Origin: Gelria sp. Kuro-4 | Lineage (GTDB): Bacteria > Bacillota > DTU030 > DUMP01 | Direction: 5' to 3' | DNA length: 64,000 nt | Assembly: GCF_019668485.1 (NCBI RefSeq) | Contig: NZ_AP024619.1 | Location: 1,549,001 to 1,613,000, forward strand | Shown here: positions 36,376 through 63,071 of the stretch, one piece after another | How the letters are laid out: the number at the start of each line of letters is the position of its first letter | How positions within the stretch are numbered: the first letter of the stretch is position 1 | Translations under genes and position numbers: made by a program | The notes under the pieces: model-generated | Database searches by the model: none | What the model was told of the DNA's origin: nothing | What the model saw: only the letters and a program-made list of their open reading frames with translations

Positions 36376-36782
36376 GGACCCTAAAAATCACCAAAACGCC
36401 CGTCCCGAAAATCTACGACGAGCGTGACAACGCCAATAATGGAGCGAGGAGGCCGGAACATCTTAAGGCTGACATTATGTACCAAATAAATTGAAGTGGG
36501 GGTGTCGTAATTGACGTAGTGTTGGAATTACGAATTAGGGATTTGATTAGAGTTGGCATTTAGTAGAGGCCTGAGGCCAATTTGGCTAGTGTTCGGTTGG
36601 TAAGCTTCTGATGGTAAGCTGCTGAAGTAGTAAGTTCGATTTAGTAACGAGGCAACATGTCAGAAAACATGTTCGAGAAAGGTCGGTTGCGGCAAGAAGG
36701 CAACATTTAACTAAGCCCCAGGAATAAGTTAACTGGGAAAATAAGCATTAGCGATCAAGTTTTCGGTGACCCAGTTAAGAGA
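36376..36782. other. AT-richer intergenic stretch, no gene seen
   Basis: About 400 bases with clearly lower GC than the core region. There is no convincing reading frame. It contains a short inverted repeat, AACATGT-CAGAAA-ACATGTT, near 36652, and repeated GGTAAGCT words. It is probably decayed mobile-element DNA between two transposase fragments. Confidence 0.5.
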
Positions 36783-37290
36783 TCATCTTCCTTTCCGCGG
36801 CTTGTAGAGTCGGTTCTTGCGCAGCAAAGCATGAACCAGCCGCACGAGCTTCCGGGCTGTGAGGACCACGGCCCGGCGGTGGTGGTGTCGCGTGGCTTCC
36901 CGGTACTTCTTCTGGTAGTACGCCTGGTACTCAGCATTGTGCACCCGCATGCTGTTGGCACCTTCCACCAGGTAGTACCGGAGATAATGGTTGCCCGTTT
37001 TGGTAAGGGGGCGATCTTCACCTTCAAACTCACTCGACTGATTGCGACGCCAGGTCAGCCCGGCGTACTTGGCTAGAGCGGCCTCGGTGGCGAAACGGGA
37101 GATGTCGCCAATCTCAGCGATGATCCCGGCGGTAAAGACACGGCCCAGGCCGGGCACCGAAAGAAGCGGATTGCTGACCGCAGTAAGTTCCCGCTCGATT
37201 TGCTTGTCCACCGCCTTGATCTGCTTCTCTACGAAACGGATGCGGGCCAGGCTGGAAGGAGCGCTTGGACAACGCTTCGGCTCCGCCTCG
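36783..37290 (-). pseudogene. IS110-family transposase, C-terminal fragment
   Basis: The last 140-170 residues of an IS110/IS1111-type transposase. The Transposase_20 domain is clear (LLSVPGLGRVFTAGIIAEIGDISRF, ALAKYAGLTWRRNQSSEFEG, TKTGNHYLRYYLVEGANSMR, HHHRRAVVLTARKLVRLVHAL). In-frame homologous-looking sequence reaches about 37290 on this strand (LARIRFVEKQIKAVDKQIERELTAV). The N-terminal DEDD catalytic domain is absent, and tctC regulatory DNA begins where it should be. The element is therefore truncated and inactive. Confidence 0.85.
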
Positions 37291-37451
37291 CGTTGCCCAC
37301 ATCTCCACAGCCCCGGCGGCGGTGATCTAAACCCTCTTCTTATTGGGGCTTTAGGGAAGGAACGGGAAACAGCTCTTCTGCTCCAAGCTCCTAGTCCGCC
37401 GTAAAGCTGTTGGAGGTCGGTCCAAGAACTATATTACGAGGGGGTAAGAAC

Positions 37452-38447
37452 ATGTCTAGGAAGAGCTTTGCGGTGTCACTGCTGTTGGCTCTTGTTACAA
37501 TTGCAGCTGTCGGCTGTAATAGTCGGCAAGGATTCAAGGGGGAAACTGCTCCAGAGAAACAAGAAACAAAGTTTCCGGATAAACCAATCACCCTTATTGT
37601 ATCGTATGCAGCAGGTGGAGGAACAGATGTAGGAGCCCGCACCTTACAGCCTTATGTAGAAAAAGAACTTGGGCAGCCGTTAGTCGTTGTTAACAAGCCC
37701 GGTGGGGGAGGCTGGGTCGGCTGGACAGAACTCGCACATGCGAAGCCAGATGGCTATACTCTCGGCTACATCAACGTTCCTACTATTATTACCGGATACT
37801 TGGACCCTAAACTCAACCGAAAGGAGTCATTAGAAAGCTTCGTACCAATTATCAATCATGTAACAGACCCTAGCGCTGTGGCTGTAAAAGCCAATGGCAG
37901 GTTTAAAACATTGAAAGAAGTAGTTGATTATGCAAAGATGCACCCGGATGAACTAACAACGACATCTACAGGCGTTGGTAGCGATGACCACCTAGCAGCC
38001 GTGGCCTTTGGCAAGGCTATTGGAAGTTCATTTAAGGTTATTCAGAACAATGGCACATCTGAAGGTATTGCCCAAGTTTTAGGCGGCCATGTAGATCTAT
38101 TGGTAGCAAATCTTGGTGAGATGATTAGTTTGGAAAAAGAAGGGAAGATCAAAATCCTTGGAGTTATGAGCGAGAAAAGGAGTGATCTTGCCTCTCACGT
38201 CCCAACTTTCAAAGAACTCGGTTATAACGTCGTGGGAGGGGTAAGCCGGGGTATTGCAGCTCCTGCCGGGCTTGACCTAAAGGTTCGCAATGTATTGGAA
38301 AACGCCTTTAAGAAAGCGATAATGAACAGCGAGCATATTGAAAAGATGGCGAAACTGGGGCTGACTGTGGATCCGATGTCTGGCGACCAGTATGTGAAGT
38401 ACCTGAAAGATCAAGAGAAACTTGTTAAGGAGCTTATGGGCTGGTAA
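37452..38447 (+). CDS. tctC: Tripartite tricarboxylate transporter substrate-binding lipoprotein (TctC/Bug family)
   Basis: A 331-residue extracytoplasmic binding protein. The signal peptide ends in a lipobox (TIAAVGCNS), so it is anchored by lipidated Cys. Family signatures are PITLIVSYAAGGGTDVGARTL, PLVVVNKPGGGGWVGW, GSDDHLAAVAFGKAIG and GGVSRGIAAPAGL. Bug proteins bind carboxylates or related small acids; the ligand here is unknown. ATG at 37452 follows GAGGGGG. It heads the tctCBA operon. Confidence 0.94.
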   Translation: MSRKSFAVSLLLALVTIAAVGCNSRQGFKGETAPEKQETKFPDKPITLIVSYAAGGGTDVGARTLQPYVEKELGQPLVVVNKPGGGGWVGWTELAHAKPDGYTLGYINVPTIITGYLDPKLNRKESLESFVPIINHVTDPSAVAVKANGRFKTLKEVVDYAKMHPDELTTTSTGVGSDDHLAAVAFGKAIGSSFKVIQNNGTSEGIAQVLGGHVDLLVANLGEMISLEKEGKIKILGVMSEKRSDLASHVPTFKELGYNVVGGVSRGIAAPAGLDLKVRNVLENAFKKAIMNSEHIEKMAKLGLTVDPMSGDQYVKYLKDQEKLVKELMGW

Positions 38448-38523
38448 TAGCTAGTACCCTGATTCCGCAGGCCCTGGTCAAACCCTGCCAGGGCCTCCCT
38501 AACTCGAAGCGGGAGGAGTAATA

Positions 38524-38931
38524 ATGAAAGCCCGGTGGTATGCCCTCGCCTTTATCTTATGCTGCTTTTTTCTTTGGTATCAGTCTCTCCCTTACGTTCC
38601 AGAAGCTGCAATTTATCCTAGGACCCTTATGGTTATCATTGTTGCTCTTTCTGTCTTCCTATTCATAAGTGACCTGCGGCGACCCAAAGATGTTTCATGG
38701 AAGTGGGTACCCCTTATTACGTTTGCAGTTTGCCTGGGATATTTCTTTTTGCTTTACCTAGTCGGTTTTGGTATTGCAACAGCGATCTTTCTCCCTACGC
38801 TAATGTACATTCAGGGCGTCCGTAAGTGGCTCACAATTGCTTTGTGCACCCTAGGGGTTGAGCTATTCATTTATTTTGTGTTTGTGATAGAGTTACATGT
38901 TCCATTACCAAAAGGTATTTGGGGGATTTAG
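38524..38931 (+). CDS. tctB: Tripartite tricarboxylate transporter small membrane subunit TctB
   Basis: A 135-residue membrane protein with four hydrophobic segments (about residues 5-20, 35-50, 60-85, 95-130). It occupies the TctB position between tctC and tctA, and its size and topology fit the family. Sequence conservation in TctB is low, so the call rests mainly on context. Its 3' end is 22 bases before the tctA start. Confidence 0.88.
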   Translation: MKARWYALAFILCCFFLWYQSLPYVPEAAIYPRTLMVIIVALSVFLFISDLRRPKDVSWKWVPLITFAVCLGYFFLLYLVGFGIATAIFLPTLMYIQGVRKWLTIALCTLGVELFIYFVFVIELHVPLPKGIWGI

Positions 38932-38953
38932 AAGGGGGGTACTAAAAGTACTT

Positions 38954-40453
38954 ATGGGTACAGTTTTATTAGAGCTTGTTAAACCGGACACTATGTTTGC
39001 TATTCTAGTAGGCACAATTAGTGGACTAGTTATTGGAGCGTTGCCAGGTTTCAGTGCAACCATGGGCATTGCCTTGTTGATCCCCTTGACCTTCGGGATG
39101 AGACCTGCCCCGGCACTAATAATGCTGGCAACTATCTATACCGCTGCCACTTATGGTGGTTCTATCTCAGCGATTCTTCTTCACACCCCAGGTACGCCCT
39201 CCTCCTGCGCAACTACCTTGGACGGCTACCAGATGACCTTGAAAGGGGAAGCCGGAAAAGCTCTGGGAATGTCCATTACAGCTTCAACCATTGGAGGAGT
39301 TTTTGGCGCGGTAGCCCTTCTCCTTATTGCACCGCCTCTGTCACAAATTGCCCTAAAGTTCGGCCCCCCTGAGTATTTCCTCTTGGCTATCTTTGGGCTC
39401 TCTACCGTAGGTGGCTTGACCAGTGGGTCTGTCCTAAGAGGGTTGCTTTCAGGACTTGTCGGTCTCATGCTAGGTACGATTGGAGTAGACGTGCTCTCAG
39501 GTTTTCCCCGGTTCACCTTTGGCATTATTCCCCTGGAATCAGGTGTTAACTTTGTTCCGGCTATGATTGGACTATTTTCCCTGTCTGAAGTTATGGCTCT
39601 TAGCGAAAGCCGTTCGTCTATAGCCAGCCAAAGCGCAGGTCAGGTAGGAGACAAGCGCATTCTGCCAGCATGGGACGAGCTTAAGAGACTTTGGAAACTT
39701 ATCTTGCGCTCAGCAGTAATTGGGACAATCATCGGCATTCTCCCGGGTGCAGGCGGAGATATAGCGTCCTGGATCAGTTACAACGAGGCCAAACGGTTTT
39801 CCAAGAATCCCGAGAAGTTCGGTACCGGGACAATTGAAGGAGTAGCCGCTCCGGAGACCGCCAATAACGCAGTAACTGGTGGAACCCTGATACCTCTCTT
39901 AACGTTAGGTATTCCGGGAAGCGCTGCTACTGCTGTGATGCTTGGTGGACTGTTAATACATGGTCTTGTGCCGGGACACGAACTCTTCACCACATACGCC
40001 AACATAACATACACGTTAATCATTGGCTTCTTGATCGGAAATATCGTGATGTTCTTTGTTGGCTTAGCGTTTTCACGATATGCTGTCCTAGTAACGCGGG
40101 TATCAACGAATATCCTGGCGCCCATCATTGCCATTTTGTGTGTTGTTGGATCTTATGCAATCAATAATAGCCTTTTCGATGTCGGTGTTATGCTTGTGTT
40201 CGGAGCAGCAGGGTATTACCTTAAAGAGGCTGGTTTCCATCCAGCACCTATGGTGCTTGGCCTTATACTAGGCCCTATGGCAGAGCGAGGCTTTCGCCAA
40301 TCACTGCTATTAGCTAAAGGGAGTGTGCTGCTGTTCTACCTTACTCGGCCGCTTTCAGTGGTCTTGATTGTATTAATAGTTATGTCGCTCACCTGGCCTT
40401 TGGTTGCCGGAAGAGCGAGCAAGAACCCTCTGACAGCAGCAGGGAACCATTAG
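38954..40453 (+). CDS. tctA: Tripartite tricarboxylate transporter large membrane subunit TctA
   Basis: A 499-residue permease subunit with about 11-12 hydrophobic segments. TctA signatures are GLVIGALPGFSATMGIALLIPLTFGM near the start, YGGSISAILLHTPGTPSSCATTLDGYQM, and GTIIGILPGAGGDIASWISYNEAKRFSKNPEKFGTGTIEGVAAPETANNA. ATG at 38954 gives the usual family length. It completes the carboxylate uptake system with TctC and TctB. Confidence 0.95.
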   Translation: MGTVLLELVKPDTMFAILVGTISGLVIGALPGFSATMGIALLIPLTFGMRPAPALIMLATIYTAATYGGSISAILLHTPGTPSSCATTLDGYQMTLKGEAGKALGMSITASTIGGVFGAVALLLIAPPLSQIALKFGPPEYFLLAIFGLSTVGGLTSGSVLRGLLSGLVGLMLGTIGVDVLSGFPRFTFGIIPLESGVNFVPAMIGLFSLSEVMALSESRSSIASQSAGQVGDKRILPAWDELKRLWKLILRSAVIGTIIGILPGAGGDIASWISYNEAKRFSKNPEKFGTGTIEGVAAPETANNAVTGGTLIPLLTLGIPGSAATAVMLGGLLIHGLVPGHELFTTYANITYTLIIGFLIGNIVMFFVGLAFSRYAVLVTRVSTNILAPIIAILCVVGSYAINNSLFDVGVMLVFGAAGYYLKEAGFHPAPMVLGLILGPMAERGFRQSLLLAKGSVLLFYLTRPLSVVLIVLIVMSLTWPLVAGRASKNPLTAAGNH

Positions 40454-40479
40454 ATCACATTCTGGAAGGAGAAACCGTG

Positions 40480-41376
40480 ATGGAGAAACAAAACCTGGGA
40501 TTTGTTGGTGTAGGTCGTATGGGCAAAGCTATGGCTACGAACCTTGTGAAAGCAGGGTACAGAGTCCGCGTATTTGACTGCCACAGGCTGGCTATGGACG
40601 CGGTGGCCCAAGAAGGGGCCCTGCCGACAGCGTTACCTGAGCTAGTACGGGAAAGCAGTGTCATCTTACTCTCTCTCCCTAACCCCGCAATCGTGGAAGA
40701 GGTCGTTCTTGGACCGGAGGGGATCTTTGCTGCAGCCTGGCCTGGTCAACTGGTTATTGATCTTAGTTCATCTACCCCTCAGAGCGAACAGAAGATTGCC
40801 GCTCAAGGAAAGAAGATTGGAGTGGATTTCCTTGATGCTCCCGTGAGCGGTGGTGTAGCCGGAGCGGTGGCTGCTAACTTGACCATCATGGTGGGTGGAC
40901 CGACAGAGGTAGTATCCCGAGCTAAGCCAGTCCTAGAGGTCATAGGTAAGAAAATCGTGCATGTAGGAGCGATAGGTTCTGGACAGGCGGTTAAGCTGGT
41001 TAACCAGCTCCTTTTTGGGGTCAACATGGTAGCCCTGGCGGAAGGCCTGAACCTTGCTGAAGCTTTGGGATTGGACCAGAGCATAGTTTACGAGGTGGTC
41101 AGCGCCGGTTCTGGGAACAGTTATGCCGTGCAAACTAGGTGCCCCAAGTTTATCTTTGCTGATAACTTCGAACCGGGGTTCAGTCTGGAGCTAGCGGCCA
41201 AGGACTTGAAACTAGCCGTGTCGGCTGCCTTAGAAGCCGGACAACCGTTACTACTTGGAGCCTTAGGCCTGCAGCTTTTCGAGGCGGCAAAACACCAAGG
41301 CTATGGGGCTAAAGACATCTCTAGCATTTACAAATACCTATCCGAACATTTAAGTCCGGTTATTAAGGAGGGTTAA
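40480..41376 (+). CDS. NAD(P)-dependent beta-hydroxyacid dehydrogenase (3-hydroxyisobutyrate dehydrogenase family)
   Basis: A 298-residue member of the 3-hydroxyisobutyrate / tartronate-semialdehyde reductase family. It has the nucleotide fold GFVGVGRMGKAMATNLVKAGY, the substrate motif DAPVSGGVAGA, and the catalytic lysine helix GSGQAVKLVNQLLFGVN. It oxidises a 3-hydroxy acid to a semialdehyde, or reduces the semialdehyde. It follows the carboxylate transporter and precedes the AOR modules, so a semialdehyde could pass to AOR. The substrate is not determinable here. GTG at 40477 is an alternative start. Confidence 0.88.
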   Translation: MEKQNLGFVGVGRMGKAMATNLVKAGYRVRVFDCHRLAMDAVAQEGALPTALPELVRESSVILLSLPNPAIVEEVVLGPEGIFAAAWPGQLVIDLSSSTPQSEQKIAAQGKKIGVDFLDAPVSGGVAGAVAANLTIMVGGPTEVVSRAKPVLEVIGKKIVHVGAIGSGQAVKLVNQLLFGVNMVALAEGLNLAEALGLDQSIVYEVVSAGSGNSYAVQTRCPKFIFADNFEPGFSLELAAKDLKLAVSAALEAGQPLLLGALGLQLFEAAKHQGYGAKDISSIYKYLSEHLSPVIKEG

Positions 41377-41377: not shown

Positions 41378-42090
41378 GTGCAGATTGATGAGGCTAAATG
41401 TATACGCTGCGGGGTGTGTGTGCCCTACTCCCCGCCGGAGCCATTAGTGTCTAGAACAAGAAAGCGCAGGTTAATCAGGACAAGTGCCTTGAGTGCGGAA
41501 CCTGTGGCCGTGCGCAGGTTGTGCGGTGCCCTGCCGAAGCCATTCACGAGGAGGAGAACGTTTACCAGCGGCCGCGCTCATTCGGAAATACTTCAGTGAT
41601 CCTACGGCCTACCATGTGGAGACAAATGTTGCAGCCCGCGGCACAGAAGAGGTAAAAACCAACGATGTTACTGGGCGGGTGAAAAAGGGGCAGTTCGGTA
41701 TCGCCATTGAGATGGGGCGTCCGTGCCTCGGGCCTTCGTTTGCTGACATCGGAGAAAGTCACAATGGCCCTAGCCCGGGAAGGCATAACCTGTTTCGAGC
41801 AGAATAACCCGCTAACGCACTCATGGCCCGCGAAGGGTATCTTTACCGACGAAGCTAAACATTGCCGGGTGGTGTCTGCAATGATTGAATTGACAATTCC
41901 CGATAAAATGCTGGAGCGTACTCTAACTACCATCGAAGAGGTTGCACAGCAGATAGACACCGTCTTCTCCTTGGATCTCATTTCGCGCCTGAGGCGCCGA
42001 ACCCATCGACAGGAGGTAGAGGAGATGCGCGGCCTTGCGTGTACGGCCGTCTTTAACCCTGATCGGGCTGCCCAACTGTTGCAATAGTAT
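41378..42090 (+). pseudogene. Decayed copy of the ferredoxin-domain protein, fused to the tail of the 208-residue protein
   Basis: This is a broken paralogue of the gene at 42648. Frame 1 reads MQIDEAKCIRCGVCVPY and then shifts. The next frame gives the second cluster motif (KCLECGTCGR) with an in-frame TAG where the intact gene has Glu. Further frameshifts carry it through KYFSDPTAYHVET, GTEEVKTNDVTGRV and IEMGRP to EKVTMALAREGIT and CRVVSAMIELTIP. The end, EVEEMRGLACTAVFNPDRAAQLLQ, matches the C-terminus of the 43382 gene, so the junction lost about 50 residues of one gene and most of the other. Confidence 0.85.
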
Positions 42091-42120
42091 GAGCGACAGT
42101 AAGCAAGGGATCTTTCTCAG

Positions 42121-42512
42121 GAGAGGAGAGAGAACACGAAAACTAGCGTATGATCAACCCAACTGCAGCGGGCTGTGTGATGTGTGCTAGCATCTGTTCT
42201 TTTAGCCTAAAAGGGTTAGTGCACCCCGGCGGCGCCCCGATCAAGCTCGCTTACGTTAGCCCAACAGATAGCCATGTAATCTACTGCCGTGACAAAACAC
42301 CCCTTGTGCTCAGGCTTATCCCCAAGGGGCCATCCCAAAGGACGATAAAATAAGACTGGCGCCTAGGTGGCAGAAGCTTCGTGGCTTTTGGATGGAGGCT
42401 TATCCCTGTGGCGTCCTTCCACTGAATACTGAATTAGGTAAAGCCGGACACGACCTGTGCCAGGGTGATCCGGCTTATATGAAGCACTGCCCAGCCCAGG
42501 CCCTGACGGTGC
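42121..42512 (+). pseudogene. Decayed copy of the four-cluster ferredoxin gene
   Basis: Matches the intact ferredoxin at 44045 in several frames: KLAYDQPNCSG at the start, then CASICSFSLKGLV, IKLAYVSPTDSHVIYC, and near 42405-42510 MEAYPCG, GKAGHDLCQGDPAYMKHCPAQALTV. Frameshifts, an early stop and an internal deletion of the middle cysteine clusters make it non-functional. It is the third gene of the duplicated module, in the same order as the intact copy. Confidence 0.8.
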
Positions 42513-42518
42513 AAGAAA

Positions 42519-42612
42519 AGTTGGTTTCTTTACCAAGTCTCCCCTCACGGGTGGTTTCATGATTCTTATGCCGGTGGGGCACTTAGGGGCAGAGCTCAAG
42601 TGCTATATGTCT
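42519..42612 (+). pseudogene. Short AOR fragment, last remnant of the decayed module
   Basis: KSPLTGGFM then, after a one-base shift, the equivalent of DSYAGGHFGAELK: this matches residues about 80-105 of the intact AOR at 44476. The rest of the gene is gone. The fragment ends about 35 bases before the intact module begins. Confidence 0.75.
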
Positions 42613-42647: not shown

Positions 42648-43379
42648 ATGCACATAGACCAAGAAAAGTGCATCGGCTGCGGGATTTGTGTTTCGTACTG
42701 CCCAGCTAACGCGATAACTGTTGAGAACAGAAAAGCGCGCATTGACGCTGGAAAGTGCCTAGAGTGTGGGACGTGCGGACGTACCAGGGTCGTACGCTGT
42801 CCAAGAGGGGCTATAACCGAGGAGGAAACAGTATATCAGCGGCCACGGTCGATAAGAAAGTACTTTAGTGACCCTATGGCCTACCACGTCGAAACCAAAG
42901 TGCCGGGGCGGGGAACGGAAGAAGTCAAGACCAATGACGTAACCGGCCGCGTCAGAAGAGGCCAGGTCGGAATTGCCATTGAAATGGGTCGGCCGGTACT
43001 TGGGGCCTCCTTTGTCGACATCGAGAAAGTAACTATGGCTCTGGCCAGAGAGGGAATCACGACTTTCGAACGCGATAACCCCCTGACACACCTGATGGCC
43101 GATCCTGCGCGAGGCATTTTTACCGAGGAAGCCAAACAGTGCCGGGTTGTATCGGCCATCATAGAATTTACCATTCCCGTAGAGATGCTCGAGCGTACGG
43201 TCGCCACTCTAAAAGAGGTAGCGAAGGAAATTGATACTGTGTTTTCACTGGACCTGATTTGTCGGTTGGATGAGAACGGATCTATCCCAGTTATGGCCCA
43301 ATTAGAGTCTCTAGGAATTAAACCCAGGCTGAACGCCAAGATCAATCTAGGTTTAGGTAAGCCACTTAAGGAGGTTTAA
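42648..43379 (+). CDS. Ferredoxin-domain protein of the AOR module, C-terminal domain of unknown function
   Basis: A 243-residue two-part protein. Residues 1-60 form a 2[4Fe-4S]-type ferredoxin domain (CIGCGICVSYCP and CLECGTCGRTRVVRCP). Residues about 65-243 form an unrecognised domain with GTEEVKTNDVTGRVRRGQVG, IAIEMGRPVLGASFVDIEKV and a beta-alpha-beta-like stretch CRVVSAIIEFTIPVEMLERTVATLK. It probably passes electrons or acts with the neighbouring AOR, which is an inference from gene order and from co-duplication. ATG follows GAGGAGG. It is tightly coupled to the next gene (2 bases). Confidence 0.8.
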   Translation: MHIDQEKCIGCGICVSYCPANAITVENRKARIDAGKCLECGTCGRTRVVRCPRGAITEEETVYQRPRSIRKYFSDPMAYHVETKVPGRGTEEVKTNDVTGRVRRGQVGIAIEMGRPVLGASFVDIEKVTMALAREGITTFERDNPLTHLMADPARGIFTEEAKQCRVVSAIIEFTIPVEMLERTVATLKEVAKEIDTVFSLDLICRLDENGSIPVMAQLESLGIKPRLNAKINLGLGKPLKEV

Positions 43380-43381
43380 CA

Positions 43382-44008
43382 ATGACACATTCCCTGCACA
43401 GAACTGGAACTCCGGAAAGCCTGCGGGAGGACTACGTAGTACTGGTCACGCCTGCGGTTGGTATTAACAACCAAGGCAGCCAGGACAAGCTGCGCGAGAT
43501 TCTCGATTTTATCTTCGATCTGGGGCCGACGAACATTGGCTCTTACGAAACGGGTACCATCTTTTCCGGAGCTACAATCGAAGAAATCAAGGCTAAGCTC
43601 AGCGAAACGCCAAGGGTAAGAGTGTGTTTTTCCAGCAAAGAGAAAGTAAAACACCTGATTCAGTTTATTAAGGAGCGTGACTACGGTCTATCGGTAACGG
43701 TCAGTGGGCTGATCGATGAAGTCCAAGGCATGGCCCGTGAACTTGGGATTAAGCCGCACTCAGTTAACCTGTCATTGGGAGTGCACGGCAAGGTAGAAGA
43801 CCTACCCTCTCCCGAGGTCCTGGAGTTCATCACCATGTGCGGCCACGGCATGATCTCTGCCAGCCTGGTGAAAAAGTTGATCGAAGGTGTAAAGGAGGGC
43901 CGTTACACGCCGGAAAAGGCGGCTGAAGAAATGGCTCGCCCGTGTGTGTGCGGGATCTTTAATACCGAGCGCGCTGCTAAGCTATTGGCCAAGTATGTTC
44001 AAAAGTAG
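43382..44008 (+). CDS. Conserved cysteine-motif protein of the AOR module, function unknown
   Basis: A 208-residue soluble protein I cannot assign to a named family. The first half is alpha/beta (VVLVTPAVGINNQGSQDKLREILDFI, GSYETGTIFSGATIEEIKAKL). The second half has FITMCGHGMISASLVKKLIEGV and a terminal ARPCVCGIFNTERAAKLL. The Cys and His residues in MCGHG and PCVCG suggest metal or cofactor binding. It sits between the ferredoxin-domain gene and the ferredoxin gene, and its tail is conserved in the decayed duplicate, so it belongs to the module. Confidence 0.75.
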   Translation: MTHSLHRTGTPESLREDYVVLVTPAVGINNQGSQDKLREILDFIFDLGPTNIGSYETGTIFSGATIEEIKAKLSETPRVRVCFSSKEKVKHLIQFIKERDYGLSVTVSGLIDEVQGMARELGIKPHSVNLSLGVHGKVEDLPSPEVLEFITMCGHGMISASLVKKLIEGVKEGRYTPEKAAEEMARPCVCGIFNTERAAKLLAKYVQK

Positions 44009-44044
44009 TCGAAAGTAGAAGATACCTGGAAAGGAGAAACGGCG

Positions 44045-44455
44045 ATGAAGTTGGTTTATGACCAGGCTAAGTGCTCCGGCTGCGCCGTATGCGTGAGCGT
44101 TTGCTCGTTCTGCCGGAAGGGTTATGTGCGGCCGGTCAATGAAAGCAACGGAAGGATTAAATTCGTTTACGTTAACCCCACGGACAGCTACGTTGTAGTG
44201 TGCCATCAGTGCGAGGATGCCGCTTGTGCCAAGGCCTGCCTCCAAGAGGCCATTACCCGCCACAGCGCAACCGGCACCTGGATGGTGCATGTCGAAAAAT
44301 GCATAGGCTGCGGGTTGTGCGTTGATGCTTGCCCCTACGGTGCCATCTACATTGATGCAGAGAACGGCAAAGCCGACAAGTGCGACTTGTGCCAAGGGGA
44401 ACCGGCCTGCGTGAAATACTGCGCGGCCCAGGCTCTCAAGTTGGCCGACGAATAA
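44045..44455 (+). CDS. Four-[4Fe-4S] ferredoxin, AOR electron-transfer subunit
   Basis: A 136-residue polyferredoxin resembling HycB/DmsB-type subunits. Four cysteine sets are visible: CSGCAVCVSVC, CHQCEDAACAKAC, CIGCGLCVDACP and CDLCQGEPACVKYC. It lies 21 bases ahead of the AOR gene and most likely carries electrons between AOR and soluble ferredoxin or another acceptor. Such AorB-type subunits are known for some bacterial AORs. Confidence 0.9.
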   Translation: MKLVYDQAKCSGCAVCVSVCSFCRKGYVRPVNESNGRIKFVYVNPTDSYVVVCHQCEDAACAKACLQEAITRHSATGTWMVHVEKCIGCGLCVDACPYGAIYIDAENGKADKCDLCQGEPACVKYCAAQALKLADE

Positions 44456-44475
44456 GAAAAAGGGAGGAGCGAACA

Positions 44476-46338
44476 ATGGTAAGCTACGGCGGTTACTGCG
44501 GACGTTTGCTGCGCGTTGATCTTACCACGAAAAAAATAAGCACAGAAGTGCTGACCGACGACTTCATCAGGAAGTATGTTGGTTGCAACGGCTTCGGTGC
44601 TGCTATACTGTTCAAAGAATTGCCGGCACGAATCGATCCTTTTTCGCCGGCAAATAAGGTTGTGCTGGCCACCGGTCCTCTGACAGGCACGATAGTACCA
44701 TGTACTCCCAAAGTGGGCATTTTCACCAAGTCACCGCTGACGGGGGGCTTTATGGATTCCTATGCTGGCGGACATTTCGGAGCAGAGCTTAAGTTTGCCG
44801 GCTTCGACGGTGTGATTATTGAAGGCGTCAGCGAAAACCCAGTTTGGTTGTACATCCACGACGGTCAGGCAGAACTCCGAGATGCTGGCAAACTGTGGGG
44901 CCTTTCGGTTCCTGAGACGGAGGCGGCTGTTCGAGCCGAGCTGAACAACAACGCGGTTCACGTAGCTTCTATTGGACCGGCCGGGGAACGTCTGGTACGT
45001 TTCGGCTGCGTCATGGTGGATATGTCGCACGCTGCCGGAAGAGGGGGGGTAGGCGCGGTCCTGGGTAGCAAAAAGCTCAAGGCCATTGTCGTTCATGGCA
45101 CAAAATACTCAGTGCCGGTGGCCAATGTTGAGGCAACGAAGGCTGTAGCGGATCGTATCTACCAACACATTTCTGAAACGCCCGCGTTACGCGACGGGAT
45201 GCCCAAATACGGGACCACCGGGGCGCTTAAGGCAAACCAGGCCTCCGGCATTCTTGGAACGCGCAACTGGCAGAGCGAAACGTTCGAGCATGCTTCCAAT
45301 ATCGACGGTGATGCGTGCCTTAAAGAACTCTTTGAGAAAAATCTTGCCTGCTTCCAATGCCCGCTGCGCTGCGTTCACTTTTCCCGGATTAAGGAAGGAA
45401 AGTACGCTGGAACAGAAACCATCGGGCCGCAGTACGAAACTATGTACAGCTTAGGCTCGGTGTGCGGAATTGCGGACATCAAAGCCGTGGCCAAGGCTAA
45501 CGAATACTGCAACGCAATGGGGATGGATACCATTTCGGCCGGTGTTACGGTAGCCTTTGCAATGGAGCTTTATGAACGGGGCATTTTGACGGCGGAAGAT
45601 TTGGGTGGGCTACAACTTACCTTCGGTAATGATGACGCCCTGCTTGCAGCGCTGGAAAGAATAGTGACTCGTAGCGGCGTGTACCGCACGCTGGGAGAAG
45701 GGACTAAGCGTGCCGCTGAAATATTCGGTGGGGAAACTTACAAGTATGCCGTCCACGTCAAAGGCCTTGAGCTGGCGGGTCATAGCGGTCGTGGCTACAA
45801 GGGTATGAGCCTTGGCTATGCCACCAGCCCACGCGGAGGAAGCCATCAGGACATGAGGCATCTTCCGGAACGAGCTGGGCAATTCGACAGAAGAGATCCC
45901 AACGGGAAGGCGCAGCTCAACTACGATATCACCTCCACAACCACAATCCGCGATACCCTAAACTACTGTGCCATGATAGAAGATGTGATTGGAAGAGTCG
46001 GCCTGAACGAACGGCATGCTGAGTTACTGAATACTGTTACCGGACTGAATTTCTCAGTTCAAGACGTACAGCGACTCGCAGATAGGATCTGGAACCTCGA
46101 GCGGGCCTTTAACGTCCGCGAGGGTATGAGCCGCAAGGACGACGTTCTTCCTTACCGCTTCATGAACGAGCCCATTCCGGAAGGGCCGTCGCAGGGCATG
46201 CACTGTCCGCCCGAAGAACTGGAGAGGATGAAGGACGAGCTCTACAAACTTCGCCGTTGGACACCGGAAGGCATACCGTCTAAGGAATTGCTCCTAGATC
46301 TTGGACTCGATGACGTGGCGGCGGAGTTGTGGCCGTAA
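44476..46338 (+). CDS. Aldehyde:ferredoxin oxidoreductase, tungsten type (copy 1)
   Basis: A 620-residue AOR that interconverts aldehydes and carboxylic acids using a tungsten-bis(pterin) centre. N-terminal AOR_N features are LLRVDLTTKKI, YVGCNGFGAAIL, TGPLTGT and KSPLTGGFMDSYAGGHFGAELK. The [4Fe-4S] ligands are ACFQCPLRC (C-x2-C-x3-C) and a distal Cys near LNYCAMIEDV. The pterin-binding GLELAGHSGRGYKGMSLGYATSPRGG is present. ATG at 44476 follows GGGAGGAG. Ferredoxin and MoaD-like genes flank it. Confidence 0.95.
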   Translation: MVSYGGYCGRLLRVDLTTKKISTEVLTDDFIRKYVGCNGFGAAILFKELPARIDPFSPANKVVLATGPLTGTIVPCTPKVGIFTKSPLTGGFMDSYAGGHFGAELKFAGFDGVIIEGVSENPVWLYIHDGQAELRDAGKLWGLSVPETEAAVRAELNNNAVHVASIGPAGERLVRFGCVMVDMSHAAGRGGVGAVLGSKKLKAIVVHGTKYSVPVANVEATKAVADRIYQHISETPALRDGMPKYGTTGALKANQASGILGTRNWQSETFEHASNIDGDACLKELFEKNLACFQCPLRCVHFSRIKEGKYAGTETIGPQYETMYSLGSVCGIADIKAVAKANEYCNAMGMDTISAGVTVAFAMELYERGILTAEDLGGLQLTFGNDDALLAALERIVTRSGVYRTLGEGTKRAAEIFGGETYKYAVHVKGLELAGHSGRGYKGMSLGYATSPRGGSHQDMRHLPERAGQFDRRDPNGKAQLNYDITSTTTIRDTLNYCAMIEDVIGRVGLNERHAELLNTVTGLNFSVQDVQRLADRIWNLERAFNVREGMSRKDDVLPYRFMNEPIPEGPSQGMHCPPEELERMKDELYKLRRWTPEGIPSKELLLDLGLDDVAAELWP

Positions 46339-46368
46339 TAGGTCTGCCCGCATGGAGGCGTTTAGGCT

Positions 46369-46659
46369 ATGGATAAACGCTCGGTTAACGTTAAGTTTCT
46401 CGGTGAGTTTCGCGACTTAGCTGGCACAGAGCAAATGATGGTCGTATTGGAAAGCAGGCATACCCTGAGAGATCTCATTCACCAATTGTGCAAGTGTGTA
46501 CCAATGCTGCAGACCCTCCTCTTGAAACCCCGAGAAGAGGGCCTTGCGCCATTCTCCATGATCTTAAATGGAAAAGAGGTGTACTCGCTGGGAGATCTTT
46601 CCCAAATAGTTCCGGATGGTAGTGAGGTGACCTTTTTCTTCTGGGGTGTCGGCGGATGA
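46369..46659 (+). CDS. MoaD/ThiS-family sulfur carrier protein
   Basis: A 96-residue beta-grasp protein ending in Gly-Gly (FFFWGVGG), the site that is adenylated and thiocarboxylated. MoaD gives sulfur to molybdopterin, which AOR needs as tungstopterin. Lying 30 bases after AOR, it may serve pterin synthesis for this enzyme. The central LNGKEVYSLGDLSQIVPDGSEVTFF matches the family. A terminator follows. Confidence 0.85.
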   Translation: MDKRSVNVKFLGEFRDLAGTEQMMVVLESRHTLRDLIHQLCKCVPMLQTLLLKPREEGLAPFSMILNGKEVYSLGDLSQIVPDGSEVTFFFWGVGG

Positions 46660-51488: not shown

Positions 51489-51521
51489 AAACCCCTGCAA
51501 CGTCAAGCGGTGCAGGGGTTT
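51489..51521 (+). terminator. Hairpin inside the left end of the insertion sequence
   Basis: AAACCCCTGCA pairs with TGCAGGGGTTT across a 11-base loop and is followed by AATCTTAAT. On the plus strand it could reduce read-through from dctP into the element. Confidence 0.5.
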
Positions 51522-52951
51522 AATCTTAATATCGGGCTTATGAAGGAGAAGAGATGCTGTAAAAGTTGATGTAGGCGAGAACTAGGAGATGGTCCTTGTC
51601 CCTGTTTCCACAAGAAGAGGGCCATCTTTTTCATGTTCTGGCAAGCGGCCGTAAGGAGGCACTGCTCTGTGACTTTGCTGCGCCCCCGCATACGGCAATA
51701 TCTTAGACCATGCAGTTCTTTAGAATCTGCGAAGCTTCTTTCAATGGTTAGCTTCCTTCGCCGGTATAGTTCTTTCCCGCGCACGCTAAGACGATTTTCC
51801 CTTATCCATTCCTTATCGTCTTCCCAAACATGTCTGGTTAAAACTTTAGTATGGTTTTTGGAATGTGTACAACGGCTTAGCATTGGGCACTTTTTACATA
51901 CTTCGGGGTCAGATTTATACTCCCGGTACCCTTCACGATTGGTTGTGCGATAGGTGAGGACGCTACCGGCAGGACAGGTGTAGTGATCCTGTTCAGGATC
52001 ATATTTGTACTGCCACTTGTGAAAGACCCCTTTCTTAGGACGGAACCTCCTATGAGCGATGACAGCATAAATTCCTTTTTGCCTTAGACCATGGGCAATA
52101 GGATTAGTGAGATAGCCTGCATCAAGCGCCACAGCCTCGACTTTAAAACCAAAGCGATGGATTTGCCTGTCAAGTCGACTGAGATAGGGAACAGAATCAT
52201 GGACATTCCCAGCGGTTACATAAGAGTCTGTGATTAGGTTCAACTTCCCGTCTACAGTTCTATGTTCCAGGTAAAAGAATCCCCGTGGCTTACCTTCCCG
52301 TACCATATGCCCGCTTTCGGGGTCAGTTGTACTGATTCGGGTTTGCCTTGTTTCGGGAGGTTCTTTTCCCTTATCCTTTAACGGCTTCTTCCCATGTTCT
52401 AAACGGTCATCCTCTACTGCTTTGTCCAGTTCCTCTACGTAGTCCTTTGTTGACTTGGCTACTTTTTCAATGGTGAATTTGCTTTTGCTGGCGTTTGCTT
52501 TTAGGAACGTAGAGTCGGAAAACAATTCTTTCCCGTCGATCAGCCCTTTGGACATTGCCTGAAATACTATCTCGTCAAATATCTGCTGGAATACATCTGT
52601 TCCATTGAACCGCCGACGTCGATTCTGGCTTATGGTGGAGTGATGGGGTACTAGATCTGAAAGAGAAAGCCCTAGGAACCAGCGATAGGCCACGTTAACT
52701 TTGATCTCTTCAACCAAACGACGCTCTGAACGTATCCCATAAATGTAACCAATGAACAACATCTTAAAGAGAATCACCGGATCAATACACGGCCGACCGT
52801 TATCCTCACAATATAAGTTCTTGGTCTTCTCTGTGATAAACCCAAAATCTATGTACTTGGTGATCTTTCGAAGTAGATGGTCCTTGGGAACCAGGTCTTC
52901 TATGTTAACGAATTCATAGCTCAGTTGTTGGGTTTTACGAGTTCTAAACAT
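51503..52951 (-). CDS. IS1182-family transposase
   Basis: A 482-residue full-length transposase with no frameshift. The N-terminal DUF772-like part has YIDFGFITEKTKNLYCEDNGRPCIDPVILFKMLFIGYIYGIRSERRL. The DDE part has SDSTFLKANASKSKF, ALDAGYLTN, and the C-terminal YRRRKLTIERSFADSKELHGLRYCRMRG. A small zinc-like cluster (CPAGS, CKKCPMLSRC) lies between. Its last codons overlap an 11-bp hairpin (51489-51521) that could stop transcription entering from dctP. The element looks recent. Confidence 0.93.
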   Translation of the reverse strand: MFRTRKTQQLSYEFVNIEDLVPKDHLLRKITKYIDFGFITEKTKNLYCEDNGRPCIDPVILFKMLFIGYIYGIRSERRLVEEIKVNVAYRWFLGLSLSDLVPHHSTISQNRRRRFNGTDVFQQIFDEIVFQAMSKGLIDGKELFSDSTFLKANASKSKFTIEKVAKSTKDYVEELDKAVEDDRLEHGKKPLKDKGKEPPETRQTRISTTDPESGHMVREGKPRGFFYLEHRTVDGKLNLITDSYVTAGNVHDSVPYLSRLDRQIHRFGFKVEAVALDAGYLTNPIAHGLRQKGIYAVIAHRRFRPKKGVFHKWQYKYDPEQDHYTCPAGSVLTYRTTNREGYREYKSDPEVCKKCPMLSRCTHSKNHTKVLTRHVWEDDKEWIRENRLSVRGKELYRRRKLTIERSFADSKELHGLRYCRMRGRSKVTEQCLLTAACQNMKKMALFLWKQGQGPSPSSRLHQLLQHLFSFISPILRLNPCTA

Positions 52952-55889: not shown

Positions 55890-56120
55890 TAAAGCGAACG
55901 TACAGTATCACATTCCTGATAGGCTCGTCAGCTTGTTTGACCCTGAGGCTGAAAGAGAACGAGCCTTAGGAACGCAGAGTTAGCAGTATCCACAGACCGT
56001 GAGTTTTACAGCAAAGACAAGGAGTGGCTGGAGTCTTCGCTCTGGTTCAAGACCGCCTACAGAAACGCGTGTTGGTTATAAGGTTCCAGCAAGCAGTTTT
56101 TCAGGGGAGGGGTCTTGCGA
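55890..56120. other. Intergenic stretch before the second AOR, possible transposase scrap
   Basis: About 230 bases. A short frame near 55908 reads HIPDRLVSLFDPEAERERAL, which recalls a segment of some transposases, and a following frame reads DREFYSKDKEWLESSLWF. Neither is long enough for a firm call. GGGGAGGGG before 56121 is the AOR ribosome site. Confidence 0.25.
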
Positions 56121-57971
56121 ATGCCTTATGGGTACATGGGAAAACTTTTGCGTGTTGATCTTACGCAAAAGAAAACATGCGTAGAGGACCTGGACTCGGC
56201 GGTTGCGCGCAAATACATTGGAGGGAGCGGGCTTGCGGCCAAGTATCTGTACGAGGAGACGGACGGCAGCACTGACCCGCTCGGGCCGGATAACCTACTT
56301 GTTTTCATGACGGGACCATTCACCGGCACTGTGGTGCCGAACTCGGGCAGGCACGCTGTGGCGGCTAAGTCGCCTCTTACCGGAATTTGGGCTGAAGGGG
56401 ATGCCGGCGGAACTTGGGGAGTAATGCTGAAGCGGGCTGGTTTTGACGGTATTCTGATTAGAGGCAAGGCCACAGAACCCGTGTACCTTTGGGTTCACGA
56501 ACAGGGCGTCGAGATCCGTCCGGCTGAGCACCTTTGGGGTAAGGACACTTTTGAGGTGGCGGACTTGATTAAAGCCGAAACGCATCCCAAGGCAGTTGTA
56601 AGCTCCATCGGCCAGGCAGGGGAAAACCTCGTCAGGATTGCTGTAATTATGAGTGATGGACGTGAGGGCCGTACAGCCGGGCGGGGCGGTTTAGGGGCTG
56701 TCATGGGATCCAAGAACCTCAAGGCAGTCGCAGTGTACGGCACTAAACGCCCAATGGCGGCAAAAGAAGAAGACCTCAAAACGTTTACCAAAGAGATGGT
56801 CACTGCCATACGAGACCGGACTCAGGGAATGAGCCGTTTTGGAACAGCCGGCGGCCTCCAGGCCATGGAGGAGCTGGGCGACCTGCCCATCCGCAACTGG
56901 TGTCAGGGCAGTTGGCCGGAAGGAGCAGCTAAGATTGGCGGCCAGCGTATGGCCGAGAGCATTCTGACGCGGAATTACCACTGTGGAGCCTGTGTTATCG
57001 GTTGCGGCCGGGTAGTCAAGCTAGGCCGCGGGGAGTACGCCGGAGTCGAACAGGGTGGACCGGAGTACGAAACCCTGGCTTCACTTGGCGCCCTCTGCCT
57101 GGTGGATGACCTGGAAGCTGTAGCCCTGGCCAATGAATACTGCAACCGTTCCGGGCTGGACACCATCTCCACCGGCTCCGCCATCGCTTTTGCCATGGAG
57201 TGCTGGGAGCATGGCCTGATAACTGCGAAAGATACCGACGGGCTCAAGCTCGAGTGGGGAAGCGCTGAGGCAATGCTGACGCTGGTGCAGGCCATTGCCC
57301 GGCGCGAGGGGCTCGGCCGGCTGTTGGCGGACGGAGTCCGAGCGGCCGCCCAGGCTTTGGGTCCCCGGGCGGAGGAATACGCCATTCATGTCAAGGGCCT
57401 GGAATTTCCCGCGCATGACCCGCGTGCCTATAACAGCGTGGCGGTCGGGTATGCTACCTCGAACAGGGGAGCATGCCACCTGCAGGGCTTCACCCATATG
57501 TTCGAAAAGAGCGTCACCATGCCCGAGCTCGGCTACGACGAGATCCAGGATCGGTTCGGCGTTGAGGGCAAGGGTGAGCTGACGGCCAAGTGCCAAGACC
57601 TTATGTGCCTGATGGACGCACTAAAAATGTGCAAGTTCTCTTTGTCGGGCGGGGTGAAGGTCACCCACATGATCAAATGGCTCAATTACGTAACTGGTTG
57701 GGATGTTTCGCTACAGGAATTCCTCAAGACAGGGGAGCGCATCTTTAACCTAAAGCGCCTGTATAACGTGCGCTGCGGCATAAGCCGTAAGGACGACATC
57801 TTGCCGCCCCGCATTCTGACCCACAAACGCGGCAGTGGTGGTGCAGCCGATAATCTGCCGCCTTTAGGCAAGATGTTGAGCGAGTACTACACGTGGCGAG
57901 GCTGGAGCGAAGAGGGCATCCCAACACATGCCAAGCTGCGCGAGCTCGGTTTGGAGGAGTATATCAGTTAG
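56121..57971 (+). CDS. Aldehyde:ferredoxin oxidoreductase, tungsten type (copy 2)
   Basis: A 616-residue AOR, clearly diverged from copy 1. It has LLRVDLTQKK, YIGGSGLAAKYLYEE, TGPFTGTVVPNSGRHAVAAKSPLTGIW, cluster ligands YHCGACVIGC (C-x2-C-x3-C), GGPEYETLASLGALC, GLEFPAHDPRAYNSVAVGYATSNRGACH, and a distal Cys-rich segment CQDLMCLMDALKMC. ATG at 56121 was chosen over TTG at 56115 on ribosome-site spacing. No ferredoxin gene is adjacent, so it may use free ferredoxin or the copy 1 subunit. Confidence 0.95.
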   Translation: MPYGYMGKLLRVDLTQKKTCVEDLDSAVARKYIGGSGLAAKYLYEETDGSTDPLGPDNLLVFMTGPFTGTVVPNSGRHAVAAKSPLTGIWAEGDAGGTWGVMLKRAGFDGILIRGKATEPVYLWVHEQGVEIRPAEHLWGKDTFEVADLIKAETHPKAVVSSIGQAGENLVRIAVIMSDGREGRTAGRGGLGAVMGSKNLKAVAVYGTKRPMAAKEEDLKTFTKEMVTAIRDRTQGMSRFGTAGGLQAMEELGDLPIRNWCQGSWPEGAAKIGGQRMAESILTRNYHCGACVIGCGRVVKLGRGEYAGVEQGGPEYETLASLGALCLVDDLEAVALANEYCNRSGLDTISTGSAIAFAMECWEHGLITAKDTDGLKLEWGSAEAMLTLVQAIARREGLGRLLADGVRAAAQALGPRAEEYAIHVKGLEFPAHDPRAYNSVAVGYATSNRGACHLQGFTHMFEKSVTMPELGYDEIQDRFGVEGKGELTAKCQDLMCLMDALKMCKFSLSGGVKVTHMIKWLNYVTGWDVSLQEFLKTGERIFNLKRLYNVRCGISRKDDILPPRILTHKRGSGGAADNLPPLGKMLSEYYTWRGWSEEGIPTHAKLRELGLEEYIS

Positions 57972-58122: not shown

Positions 58123-58272
58123 ATATTAGTATAATATTGCCACATTTAGATAGCAATAGAATAGTCCGTCAGCGGCTCCCGGATATGCTAAAATGACATT
58201 AAGAACAGAGCTCCGACTGGATGCAGAGGCGACATAGAAAGACTAGATTTGCCACATTGCGAGGTGGCAGTG

Positions 58273-60348
58273 TTGAGCCTGAATGAAAGACAGCGGAAAC
58301 TGGCAGGGGTTCTTCTGCAATCTCCAGAACGTGTAACGATTCGTGCGTTGGCCGAACGACTTCGGGTTAGTCAAAGGACCGTCCGCTATGACCTCGATTC
58401 CTTGGAGTCCTGGCTTGAGAAACGTAATGTTAACCTTATCCGTAAACCAAACCAAGGTATCTGGCTTGAAGGCGACCCGGAGCTATTGTGTGCGCTGCAA
58501 CACGAATTGGGACCGACTGTTTCCTATGACTGTTCGCTGTCACCGAAAGAGCGGCAGGAGCTGCTGGCTGCCTTGCTCTTGCGATCCGACAGGCCTTTAA
58601 CCGCGGAAGAGCTCGCGGACAGACTCATGGTCAGCCGTGCGACTGTCGTATCGGACCTTCAGAAAGTCCGCAGCTGGTTTGCCGACCGGGGTATTTCCCT
58701 TCACAGTAAGCCCAACGTAGGATACTACCAAGAAAGCTCGGAAAAAGACTGGCGGCGGGCTGTCAGCGATCTTCTCACAGGATCCGCCGGGGAAGAGCAT
58801 TTGATTCGTTACCTTACAGAGATGAGTTCAGGGTCCGGACCATGGCGACGAGAAGGTCCGGACGGCGGTATCATGCTTGTTCTGACTCTTTTTCGTGAAG
58901 TGAACTTGACCGAGCTTGAGAAAATCGTAACGGAGGTGTGCGGACGCAACGGGCTTGCCTTAAACGACAGTTCAATGGTCGGCCTTGTGATCCATCTCGC
59001 GCTTGCCATTACGCGTCTCAAGCAAGGTAAGGATATCGTGATGCTTTCCCCGGACCTGGACGAGATCAAGGAAAGTCCTGAGTTTGGCATAGCCGGCGAA
59101 GTGGCATTGGCTGTGCGCGAGCAGTACAAGGTAGAGATGCCACCGGCGGAGATAGGGTACATTAGTTTGCATCTTATGGGGGCCAAGCTGTGCTCTTACA
59201 GGAAAAAAGCTTATAAGGGACATGACGGTAAAGCAGATGGAATAAAGGTCTTGGCAACCCAATTCATACGTCGTGCGGAGACATTGTTGGGTGTGGAACT
59301 CTCAACAGATACGCAACTTTTGGATGGGCTGACAATCCATCTGCAACCTGTCCAAGCGCGAGTGAAGTTTGGCCTTCCCTTTCGCAATCCACTCCTCGAT
59401 GAAATCAAGCAGAAGTTCTCCTTCCTGTTCTTCGTCGCTAAACAGGCGTCAAGGACACTTGAAGACACTTGGGGCAATAACCTCCCCGAAGAAGAGATCG
59501 GCTACCTCACCCTGCACCTGGGGGCAGCCGTGGAGCGACTGAAAACCAGGTATCGTATCCGGCCAAGAGCTCTTGTGGTGTGCGGCAGTGGAGTGGGTAC
59601 ATCACAACTCATTGCAAGCGTTTTGGAGTCCGAAATCCCGGAGATCGAGCTTGTCGGTTTTAGCTCGGCATTTTGCGTTGCCCAGCAGATAAAGAGCCTT
59701 CAACCCGATTTAGTCCTTTCGACCGTTCCTATTAAGAATTGTGGGGTTCAGACAATTGTCTTGTCCGGCATTCCAACTTCCCAAGAAATCAAGGAACTCC
59801 GGGCCGCACTTGGTTTTGGCTCAAGTGAGCCCGGGGTGAAGCAAAAAGAAGGTTTAGAAAGCAAACATGGCTTTTCGGGAGGGACAAAACCGGTGCTTTC
59901 TGACGTGCTGGTGGCAGAAACCATAGCTCTAGATGTAGAGGCAAAAGACTGGGAAGAGGGCGTTCGCCTTGCCGGGGGATTGTTGGTGCGAAGTGGTTCC
60001 ATCGAAGAACGCTACGTGGACAGTATGATCAAGGCGGTCCAGGAACTGGGACCCTACATTGTAATAGCGCCGGGTATCGCCATGCCGCATGCCCGCCCGG
60101 AAGACGGGGCACGAAAGATCGGGCTGAGTCTGGTTCGGCTCAAGAACCCGGTTTCATTTGGTAACCCAACAAACGATCCTGTTGATTTGATCATCGGCTT
60201 GAGCGCCGTTGACAGTGACTCTCATCTGAAGCTTCTCGCCCAGCTTTCTAAACTTGTTAATAACCCAAATCGCCTGAAAGTCATTAGAGAAGCCGGCAGC
60301 AAGGAGGGGATTCTGGCGCTGGTTTCTCAGGTCTCCGAAGAAAACTGA
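58273..60348 (+). CDS. PRD-containing transcriptional regulator with PTS EIIB and EIIA domains (MtlR type)
   Basis: A 691-residue multi-domain regulator. HTH_11 comes first (IRALAERLRVSQRTVRYDLDSLE), then an Mga-type HTH (LTAEELADRLMVSRATVVSDLQKV). Two PRD domains follow, with histidines in VGLVIHLALAITRL and GYISLHLMGAKL, then LTIHLQPVQARVKF and IGYLTLHLGAAVERL. An EIIB domain carries VVCGSGVGTSQ, and a C-terminal EIIA of the mannitol/fructose/ascorbate type carries the His in GIAMPHARPEDGA. Phosphorylation at these sites would report sugar flux. TTG at 58273 follows GAGGTGG; starts 3-24 bases earlier are possible. It leads the PTS operon. Confidence 0.92.
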   Translation: MSLNERQRKLAGVLLQSPERVTIRALAERLRVSQRTVRYDLDSLESWLEKRNVNLIRKPNQGIWLEGDPELLCALQHELGPTVSYDCSLSPKERQELLAALLLRSDRPLTAEELADRLMVSRATVVSDLQKVRSWFADRGISLHSKPNVGYYQESSEKDWRRAVSDLLTGSAGEEHLIRYLTEMSSGSGPWRREGPDGGIMLVLTLFREVNLTELEKIVTEVCGRNGLALNDSSMVGLVIHLALAITRLKQGKDIVMLSPDLDEIKESPEFGIAGEVALAVREQYKVEMPPAEIGYISLHLMGAKLCSYRKKAYKGHDGKADGIKVLATQFIRRAETLLGVELSTDTQLLDGLTIHLQPVQARVKFGLPFRNPLLDEIKQKFSFLFFVAKQASRTLEDTWGNNLPEEEIGYLTLHLGAAVERLKTRYRIRPRALVVCGSGVGTSQLIASVLESEIPEIELVGFSSAFCVAQQIKSLQPDLVLSTVPIKNCGVQTIVLSGIPTSQEIKELRAALGFGSSEPGVKQKEGLESKHGFSGGTKPVLSDVLVAETIALDVEAKDWEEGVRLAGGLLVRSGSIEERYVDSMIKAVQELGPYIVIAPGIAMPHARPEDGARKIGLSLVRLKNPVSFGNPTNDPVDLIIGLSAVDSDSHLKLLAQLSKLVNNPNRLKVIREAGSKEGILALVSQVSEEN

Positions 60349-60372
60349 ATCCAAGAAGAAAGGATGTTCACC

Positions 60373-61419: not shown

Positions 61420-61442
61420 CTCAGGAGGTGAAACGGAAAACC

Positions 61443-61712: not shown

Positions 61713-61731
61713 CAATCAAGGGGGGATTTGG

Positions 61732-63000: not shown

Positions 63001-63071
63001 TGTTGCAGGCGACGGGGAAACTGGCACACCGGTTTCCCCCTATTATATCTATCTGGAGGTTGAATTGAAAA

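Follow-up and report, generated by a model that had tools for sequence, protein, structure and literature searches.

A two-gene iron-sulfur protein unit next to a tungsten oxidoreductase cassette in Gelria sp. Kuro-4

Introduction

Tungsten oxidoreductases (WORs) of Class II consist of a large subunit, WorL, and a small subunit, WorS, which are encoded together with WorX and need no further subunits; WorX is thought to act in cofactor synthesis, and not as a subunit (PMC13328260). Then, what is the role of two additional genes that directly precede a cassette of this kind? Such an arrangement occurs in a stretch of 64,000 nucleotides of Gelria sp. Kuro-4 (contig NZ_AP024619.1, positions 1,549,001 to 1,613,000), hereafter the window, to which all positions below refer unless a locus or contig is named. 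Here, genes for proteins of 243 and 208 residues (the 243/208 pair) are followed by those of a tungsten aldehyde:ferredoxin oxidoreductase (AOR), and an earlier note on this DNA had considered the five genes to encode a multi-subunit complex beyond the known AorAB. Our analysis gives good support to a different view, namely that the 243/208 pair is an obligate two-subunit iron-sulfur protein, separate from the AOR cassette. The five genes are as follows.

42648..43379, + strand: subunit A of the pair, 243 amino acids, N-terminal 2x[4Fe-4S] ferredoxin domain and undescribed C-terminal domain
43382..44008, + strand: subunit B of the pair, 208 amino acids, no relative in Pfam, NCBIfam or PDB
44045..44455, + strand: polyferredoxin, 136 amino acids, WorS/AorA-type small subunit of AOR (8c0z_C match, Cys positions)
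44476..46338, + strand: AOR large subunit (WorL), 620 amino acids (1aor match, Pfam AFOR_N/AFOR_C, residue check)
46369..46659, + strand: ThiS/MoaD-like protein, 96 amino acids, GG C-terminus, putative WorX-type cofactor-synthesis protein (weak family matches)

The tungsten AOR is thus encoded together with a polyferredoxin and a MoaD-like protein, as the earlier note had described, with all five open reading frames (ORFs) present on the + strand. The close spacing that it pointed out was also measured: the intergenic gaps are 2, 36, 20 and 30 nt, in order, and a good ribosome-binding site precedes each gene. For the AOR gene the start was taken as ATG, while the listed ORF begins at a GTG further upstream. 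A promoter scan of the locus found nothing, and a terminator scan gave little above chance.

Judged from its sequence, the part at 44045-46659 appears to be a Class II tungsten oxidoreductase cassette of the ordinary kind (WorL, WorS and a WorX-type protein). It shares with the described Class II layout the large subunit, the adjoining four-cluster polyferredoxin and the ThiS-like WorX-type protein, and differs from it in a His in place of Tyr427 (Pyrococcus furiosus numbering) and in the 243/208 pair ahead of the cassette (PMC13328260), neither of which makes it a new class. As for AorABC of Aromatoleum aromaticum (Class III WOR, PDB 8c0z), the AOR large subunits are homologous and the polyferredoxin matches the Fe-S subunit; however, neither a FAD/NAD subunit gene (Class III) nor genes for bifurcating or membrane subunits (Classes IV and V) were found among the ORFs of 42648-46659, and in sequence searches the 243- and 208-residue proteins match no AorABC subunit.

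For the pair itself, the nearest described proteins are HgcB-type and other 2x[4Fe-4S] ferredoxins, which resemble residues 2-62 of the 243-residue protein (HgcB model 43.9 bits, cut-off 99), whereas its other 180 residues match nothing, so that the common part is the ferredoxin domain only. The 6-hydroxynicotinate reductase (Hnr), an Fe-S enzyme that reduces a carboxylate in a nicotinate pathway, was presumed by us to be a possible relative of the C-terminal domain, which carries the motif GRGTEExKTN. This was not borne out on testing: BLASTP and hhalign comparisons of both proteins with an annotated alphaproteobacterial Hnr and its UPF0280 neighbour gave no similarity, a comparison that excludes the original Eubacterium barkeri enzyme.

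The 243/208 pair

Two samples were used to follow the pair beyond the window. One consists of 398 genomes drawn evenly from the phylum (the even draw), and its neighbourhood counts are based on the 42 pairs found in genomes other than that of the window. The other is a wide scan through genomes of bacteria and archaea, which gave at least 575 relatives, 75 of the loci being listed. In the even draw, the 208 family occurs in 25 genomes and the 243 C-terminal domain in 24 of the same genomes, the sole difference being a genome in which the 208 gene lies at a contig edge. The two genes are adjacent in 28 of 29 loci, and they are found together in all of the 75 listed loci of the wide scan, which belong to Bacillota, Synergistota, Chloroflexota, Deltaproteobacteria, Bacteroidota and a Desulfurococcales archaeon. 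The gap between them is mostly from -4 to +22 nt. The window's genome alone contains nine intact pairs, the members being adjacent every time. The shared genomes, the adjacency and the short gaps are as expected for two obligate subunits of one protein, and chance is excluded because the pair is conserved across hundreds of genomes.

The 243-residue protein begins with a ferredoxin domain (Fer4 46.6 bits, cut-off 21.1), whose two [4Fe-4S] motifs are C8/C11/C14/C18 and C37/C40/C43/C51. Conservation was assessed on a wide set of 102 aligned pairs, which is biased towards window-like pairs, and there the eight ferredoxin Cys are about 97% conserved. The C-terminal domain of about 180 residues contains an invariant loop, GRGTEExKTN..T....G..G...GRP, with G87, R88, G89, T90, E92, K94, G114, R115 and P116 invariant in the set, as are S169, E173, K231, G235 and G237 further on. 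Profile searches found no relative of this domain in Pfam, NCBIfam or PDB sequences, and the fusion of a ferredoxin domain to a domain that cannot be assigned thus agrees with what had been noticed in the sequence at the outset.

The same profile searches found no relative of the 208-residue protein either. Its MCGHG and PCVCG motifs, already pointed out in the earlier note, were located at 152-156 and 187-191, respectively, and they include many of the residues that are invariant among the 102 aligned proteins, i.e., M1, H3, R7, G9, H126, C153, G154, H155, C188, C190, G191 and N194; H6 is 99% conserved. The predicted architecture is an alpha/beta N-terminal domain followed by a helical C-terminal part, and the structure prediction of the protein alone has a predicted local distance difference test (pLDDT) score of 93.9. 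A homology between the 243 C-terminal domain and the 208-residue protein was also considered, and hhalign found none.

In locus L085, both subunits could be modelled as one chain by reading through a stop codon, which gave a pLDDT of 85 and a predicted template modelling score (pTM) of 0.84; some 400 residues exceeded pLDDT 90. The model suggests a defined relative placement of the two subunits. Although the predicted structures are confident, neither this model nor that of the 208-residue protein had a PDB match at E<=0.001 in a fold search; the best hits were generic alpha/beta folds and, at the N-terminus, ferredoxins. A search of a viral library gave nothing for the pair, and tblastn against plasmids gave three weak matches with the 243-residue protein, chiefly over the ferredoxin part, and none with the 208-residue protein. 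A candidate natural fusion of the two (L083 8270-9739, 490 amino acids) was rejected, as its middle is out of frame, which points to a frameshift or a sequencing error.

Consequently, the two proteins are indeed uncharacterised and belong together, as the earlier note had supposed. No publication on the pair was found in the open literature, most subscription journals being outside the search. As far as tested against Pfam, NCBIfam, PDB and the open literature, the 243 C-terminal domain and the 208-residue protein represent new families that cannot be assigned to a described one, while the reaction of the pair may turn out to be a known one.

Relation of the pair to AOR

Could the two proteins be extra subunits of the AOR in a larger complex? 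The AOR cassette is itself well recognizable. The large subunit matches P. furiosus AOR (1aor) with E=1.5e-137, as well as AFOR_N (8e-77) and AFOR_C (1.7e-123) of Pfam; Thr247, Glu321 and His457 align to the P. furiosus residues Thr243, Glu313 and His448 and are conserved, the four cluster Cys (Cys292/295/299/498) are kept, and it is His436 that replaces Tyr427. The polyferredoxin has 17 Cys arranged for four [4Fe-4S] sites, and its top solved match is 8c0z_C, the Fe-S subunit of the Aromatoleum AOR (E=8.6e-25). The ThiS/MoaD-like protein scores with ThiS (E=0.0013), SAMP1 (4e-8) and MoaD_arch (2e-7), all under the curated cut-offs.

An AOR complex enlarged by the pair would be in line with the tight operon at 42648-46659, and with the further copies of it in the same genome. 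An intact sister cassette with equal gene order (L033) is located 40 kb off, at G000:C1 ~1.632 Mb, and a decayed third copy is found within the window. Furthermore, the pair adjoins the AOR in five of five cases where the AOR is at least 56% identical to that of the window, although two of the five were found by searching with the pair and are therefore not independent evidence. In addition, AOR occurs in 24 of 25 genomes that carry the pair and in 203 of 373 others (Fisher p ~1e-5), a difference confounded by anaerobic lifestyle and kinship.

However, with a neighbour defined as a gene within 5 kb on the same strand, AOR is near only 2 of the 42 pairs of the even draw, and near 12 of the 102 pairs of the wide set. 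No AOR match was found in 10 of 37 pair genomes, such as the isolates Anaerospora hongkongensis and a Pseudoflavonifractor, for which genome completeness is not stated. The adjacency changes eight times on the tree of the pair, the gene order is shuffled even inside the window's subclade, and known Class II WORs require just WorL and WorS (PMC13328260). The survey of neighbourhoods that the earlier note had suggested therefore shows AOR to be the exception, and the idea of AOR subunits is refuted as a general claim, since the two families are found mostly away from AOR; as an account of the pair, we consider it highly improbable. The link between the pair and AOR holds only within the window's subclade, where pathway partners sharing ferredoxin fit better than a fixed complex.

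The copies in the same genome also bear on the co-duplication of the module that had been claimed. The decayed second cassette copy and the features ahead of it are listed below.

37410..40453, + strand: tripartite tricarboxylate transporter (TTT) TctC-TctB-TctA (37410-38447, 38524-38931, 38897-40453)
40477..41376, + strand: 3-hydroxyisobutyrate dehydrogenase (HIBDH)-family beta-hydroxyacid dehydrogenase, recurring pair neighbour (Pfam/NCBIfam searches)
41378..42600, + strand: decayed second cassette copy (DNA identity to sister cassette)

The remnants at 41378-42600 comprise a frameshifted 243 gene, a stub of the mostly deleted 208 gene, polyferredoxin and an AOR fragment. Their DNA identity to the sister cassette is 85%, 79% and 91% in three stretches, whereas that to the intact neighbouring cassette is only ~70-76%. 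That is, the region is a relic nearer to the ~1.63 Mb cassette than to the adjacent one, so that a second, decayed cassette is indeed present, but not as a simple tandem copy.

Several of the nine pairs in the window's genome have no AOR nearby, and adjoin genes for TTT or TRAP transporters, M20 peptidase, or FAH-like, LarA and OYE-like proteins. Three of the pairs (L030, L031 and L035; G000:C1 312730, 327498 and 2263109) are near-identical and lie in differing contexts, which suggests recent copying within the genome. This genome has ten full AOR genes and one fragment; a second AOR in the window, at 56115-57971, is 41% identical to the first and has no adjoining polyferredoxin.

Genomic neighbours and proposed function

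The commonest neighbour of the pair is TctA, near 30 of the 42 pairs of the even draw and 58 of the 102 of the wide set, while with 1-10 TctA genes per genome a rough estimate of the adjacency expected by chance is ~1%. In the window, the identity of TctA is backed by PF01970 at G000:C1:1587996-1589258. A HIBDH-family gene is near 28 of the 102 pairs, and other recurring neighbours are Ldh2, GlcD-type dehydrogenases, malate-racemase-like LarA, DHDPS, RraA and aldolases. The transporter, the dehydrogenases, LarA and the aldolases suggest hydroxycarboxylates as the substrates of the pair. In many loci, the transporter and the pair occur alone, and no further oxidoreductase was found. The best explanation of the window's locus is a cluster for uptake and breakdown of organic acids that is made up of two separable modules.

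Electron-transfer genes recur as well: in several loci the pair is accompanied by polyferredoxin, a CO-dehydrogenase-like protein and an NAD(P)/FAD reductase, and in L067 by a NuoE-like gene with an adjoining long ORF. The recurring cluster (L106 6546-11119, L126 6626-11130, L130 2868-7512, L179, L183, L188 and L191) comprises polyferredoxin, a diverged Prismane/CO-dehydrogenase-like protein (~400-570 amino acids), the 243/208 pair and a PadH/NirB-like NAD(P)/FAD reductase. The CO-dehydrogenase-like protein of L106 scores 145 bits with TIGR01702 (cut-off 478).

We tentatively favour, at somewhat less than even confidence, the reading of the pair as an undescribed two-subunit iron-sulfur oxidoreductase that acts on (hydroxy)carboxylates after their import and has its catalytic cluster at the three invariant Cys of the 208-residue protein. 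A redox enzyme is suggested because the ferredoxin domain is fused and conserved and electron-transfer neighbours are recurrent. Likewise, the invariant Cys, His and Asn of the 208-residue protein are suggestive of a catalytic cluster in which one iron is open, as known from Fe-S hydro-lyases or reductive dehydroxylases. We infer the cluster type, the catalytic role, the substrate class and the direction of electron flow. The 243-residue subunit would carry electrons via its two [4Fe-4S] clusters and supply the invariant charged loop GRGTEExKTN. The 208-residue subunit would hold the metal site. Here Cys153, Cys188 and Cys190 most likely bind a [4Fe-4S] cluster, of which one iron would be open to substrate, and the invariant His3, His126, His155 and Asn194 and the near-invariant His6 would assist. 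The pair may then act as a ferredoxin-linked oxidoreductase or reductive dehydratase on (hydroxy)carboxylates imported by TTT or TRAP transporters. A putative order for the window is that Tct takes up the acid, the pair transforms it, the HIBDH-family enzyme then forms a semialdehyde and AOR oxidises the latter. The product or substrate of the pair would thus be handed to the HIBDH-family dehydrogenase, and the pair and AOR modules would share ferredoxin.

Several points weigh against this proposal. There is no relative of known function from which a reaction could be transferred, the neighbouring enzymes are so varied that no single substrate is implied, and the convergence of the invariant residues on one site is an assumption. 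Moreover, a second 208 copy of ~139 amino acids, found in Gracilibacter and Desulfosporosinus, has lost the whole C-terminal Cys region while keeping H3, H6, R7 and H126, and thus the Cys site is dispensable in some pairs. The short copies are listed below, and each of the five loci also holds a full pair.

L067 13928-14350: short 208 copy
L068 7965-8381: short 208 copy
L069 13920-14339: short 208 copy
L070 17563-17982: short 208 copy
L072 17566-17985: short 208 copy

Three Cys and His in the 208-residue protein would also suit zinc. The pair could then be an enzyme that depends on this metal, such as a tautomerase or decarboxylase, and its ferredoxin clusters would be accessory. The site has just these three Cys plus His, and the top sub-threshold PDB profile match over the CGH region is XPA (E=0.035), probably by chance. 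Nevertheless, it is difficult to see why a redox-neutral zinc enzyme should have a ferredoxin domain fused to it and conserved, and we regard this alternative as improbable.

Fe-S hydro-lyases have a 3-Cys cluster pattern, which the three invariant Cys also resemble, and the setting is one of carboxylates, with dehydrogenases, racemases and aldolases. The pair might accordingly be an Fe-S hydro-lyase or isomerase that acts on carboxylates without redox chemistry, whose 208 cluster would serve as a Lewis acid of aconitase or fumarase type while the ferredoxin domain is structural or protective. However, the ~97% conservation of the ferredoxin Cys and the recurrent electron-transfer neighbours favour electron flow, and neither a sequence nor a fold match to any hydro-lyase was obtained, which leaves this reading unlikely.

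Alternatively, the ferredoxin domain, the many differing neighbour enzymes and the up to nine paralogous pairs per genome could be explained by an electron-transfer adaptor or sensor, which would have no active site of its own and serve a nearby acid-oxidising enzyme. But most of the invariant residues are charged and look catalytic (R88, E92, K94, H3, H126, H155 and N194), and in the many loci with only a transporter and the pair no other oxidoreductase was found. Such a role is, in our opinion, distinctly unlikely.

At least 575 loci of this conserved two-gene unit occur in gut, sediment and thermophilic anaerobes, and most surveyed pairs sit with TTT transporters. For many of these transporters no substrate is known; the reaction of the pair, once found, would probably explain those TTT operons too. 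It is possible, though rather doubtful, that the pair is a new enzyme class with new folds. Its task would be a key redox step (e.g., reductive dehydroxylation) on the hydroxycarboxylates that hundreds of anaerobes, gut bacteria among them, import, and it would be central to many TTT operons of unknown substrate.

Other observations

Some AOR-like large subunits of Chloroflexota, located by double pairs (L137 1544-3391 and L139 1-1854), have Glu or Gln for His448 and a His in place of one cluster Cys. Frames resembling a ThiF-MobB-like GTPase fusion were seen by eye near pairs or AOR (L133 1049-2491, also L031, L111 and L125), and perhaps encode a protein of pterin-cofactor synthesis.

In the window, transposase-like frames flank the cluster, namely an IS110-like remnant at 36755-37211 and an IS1182-like gene at 51503-52951. 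The region 58249-63806 contains genes for a PRD-type regulator, SIS-domain sugar-phosphate proteins and IIB/IIC components of an ascorbate-type phosphotransferase system. Both assignments were judged by eye.

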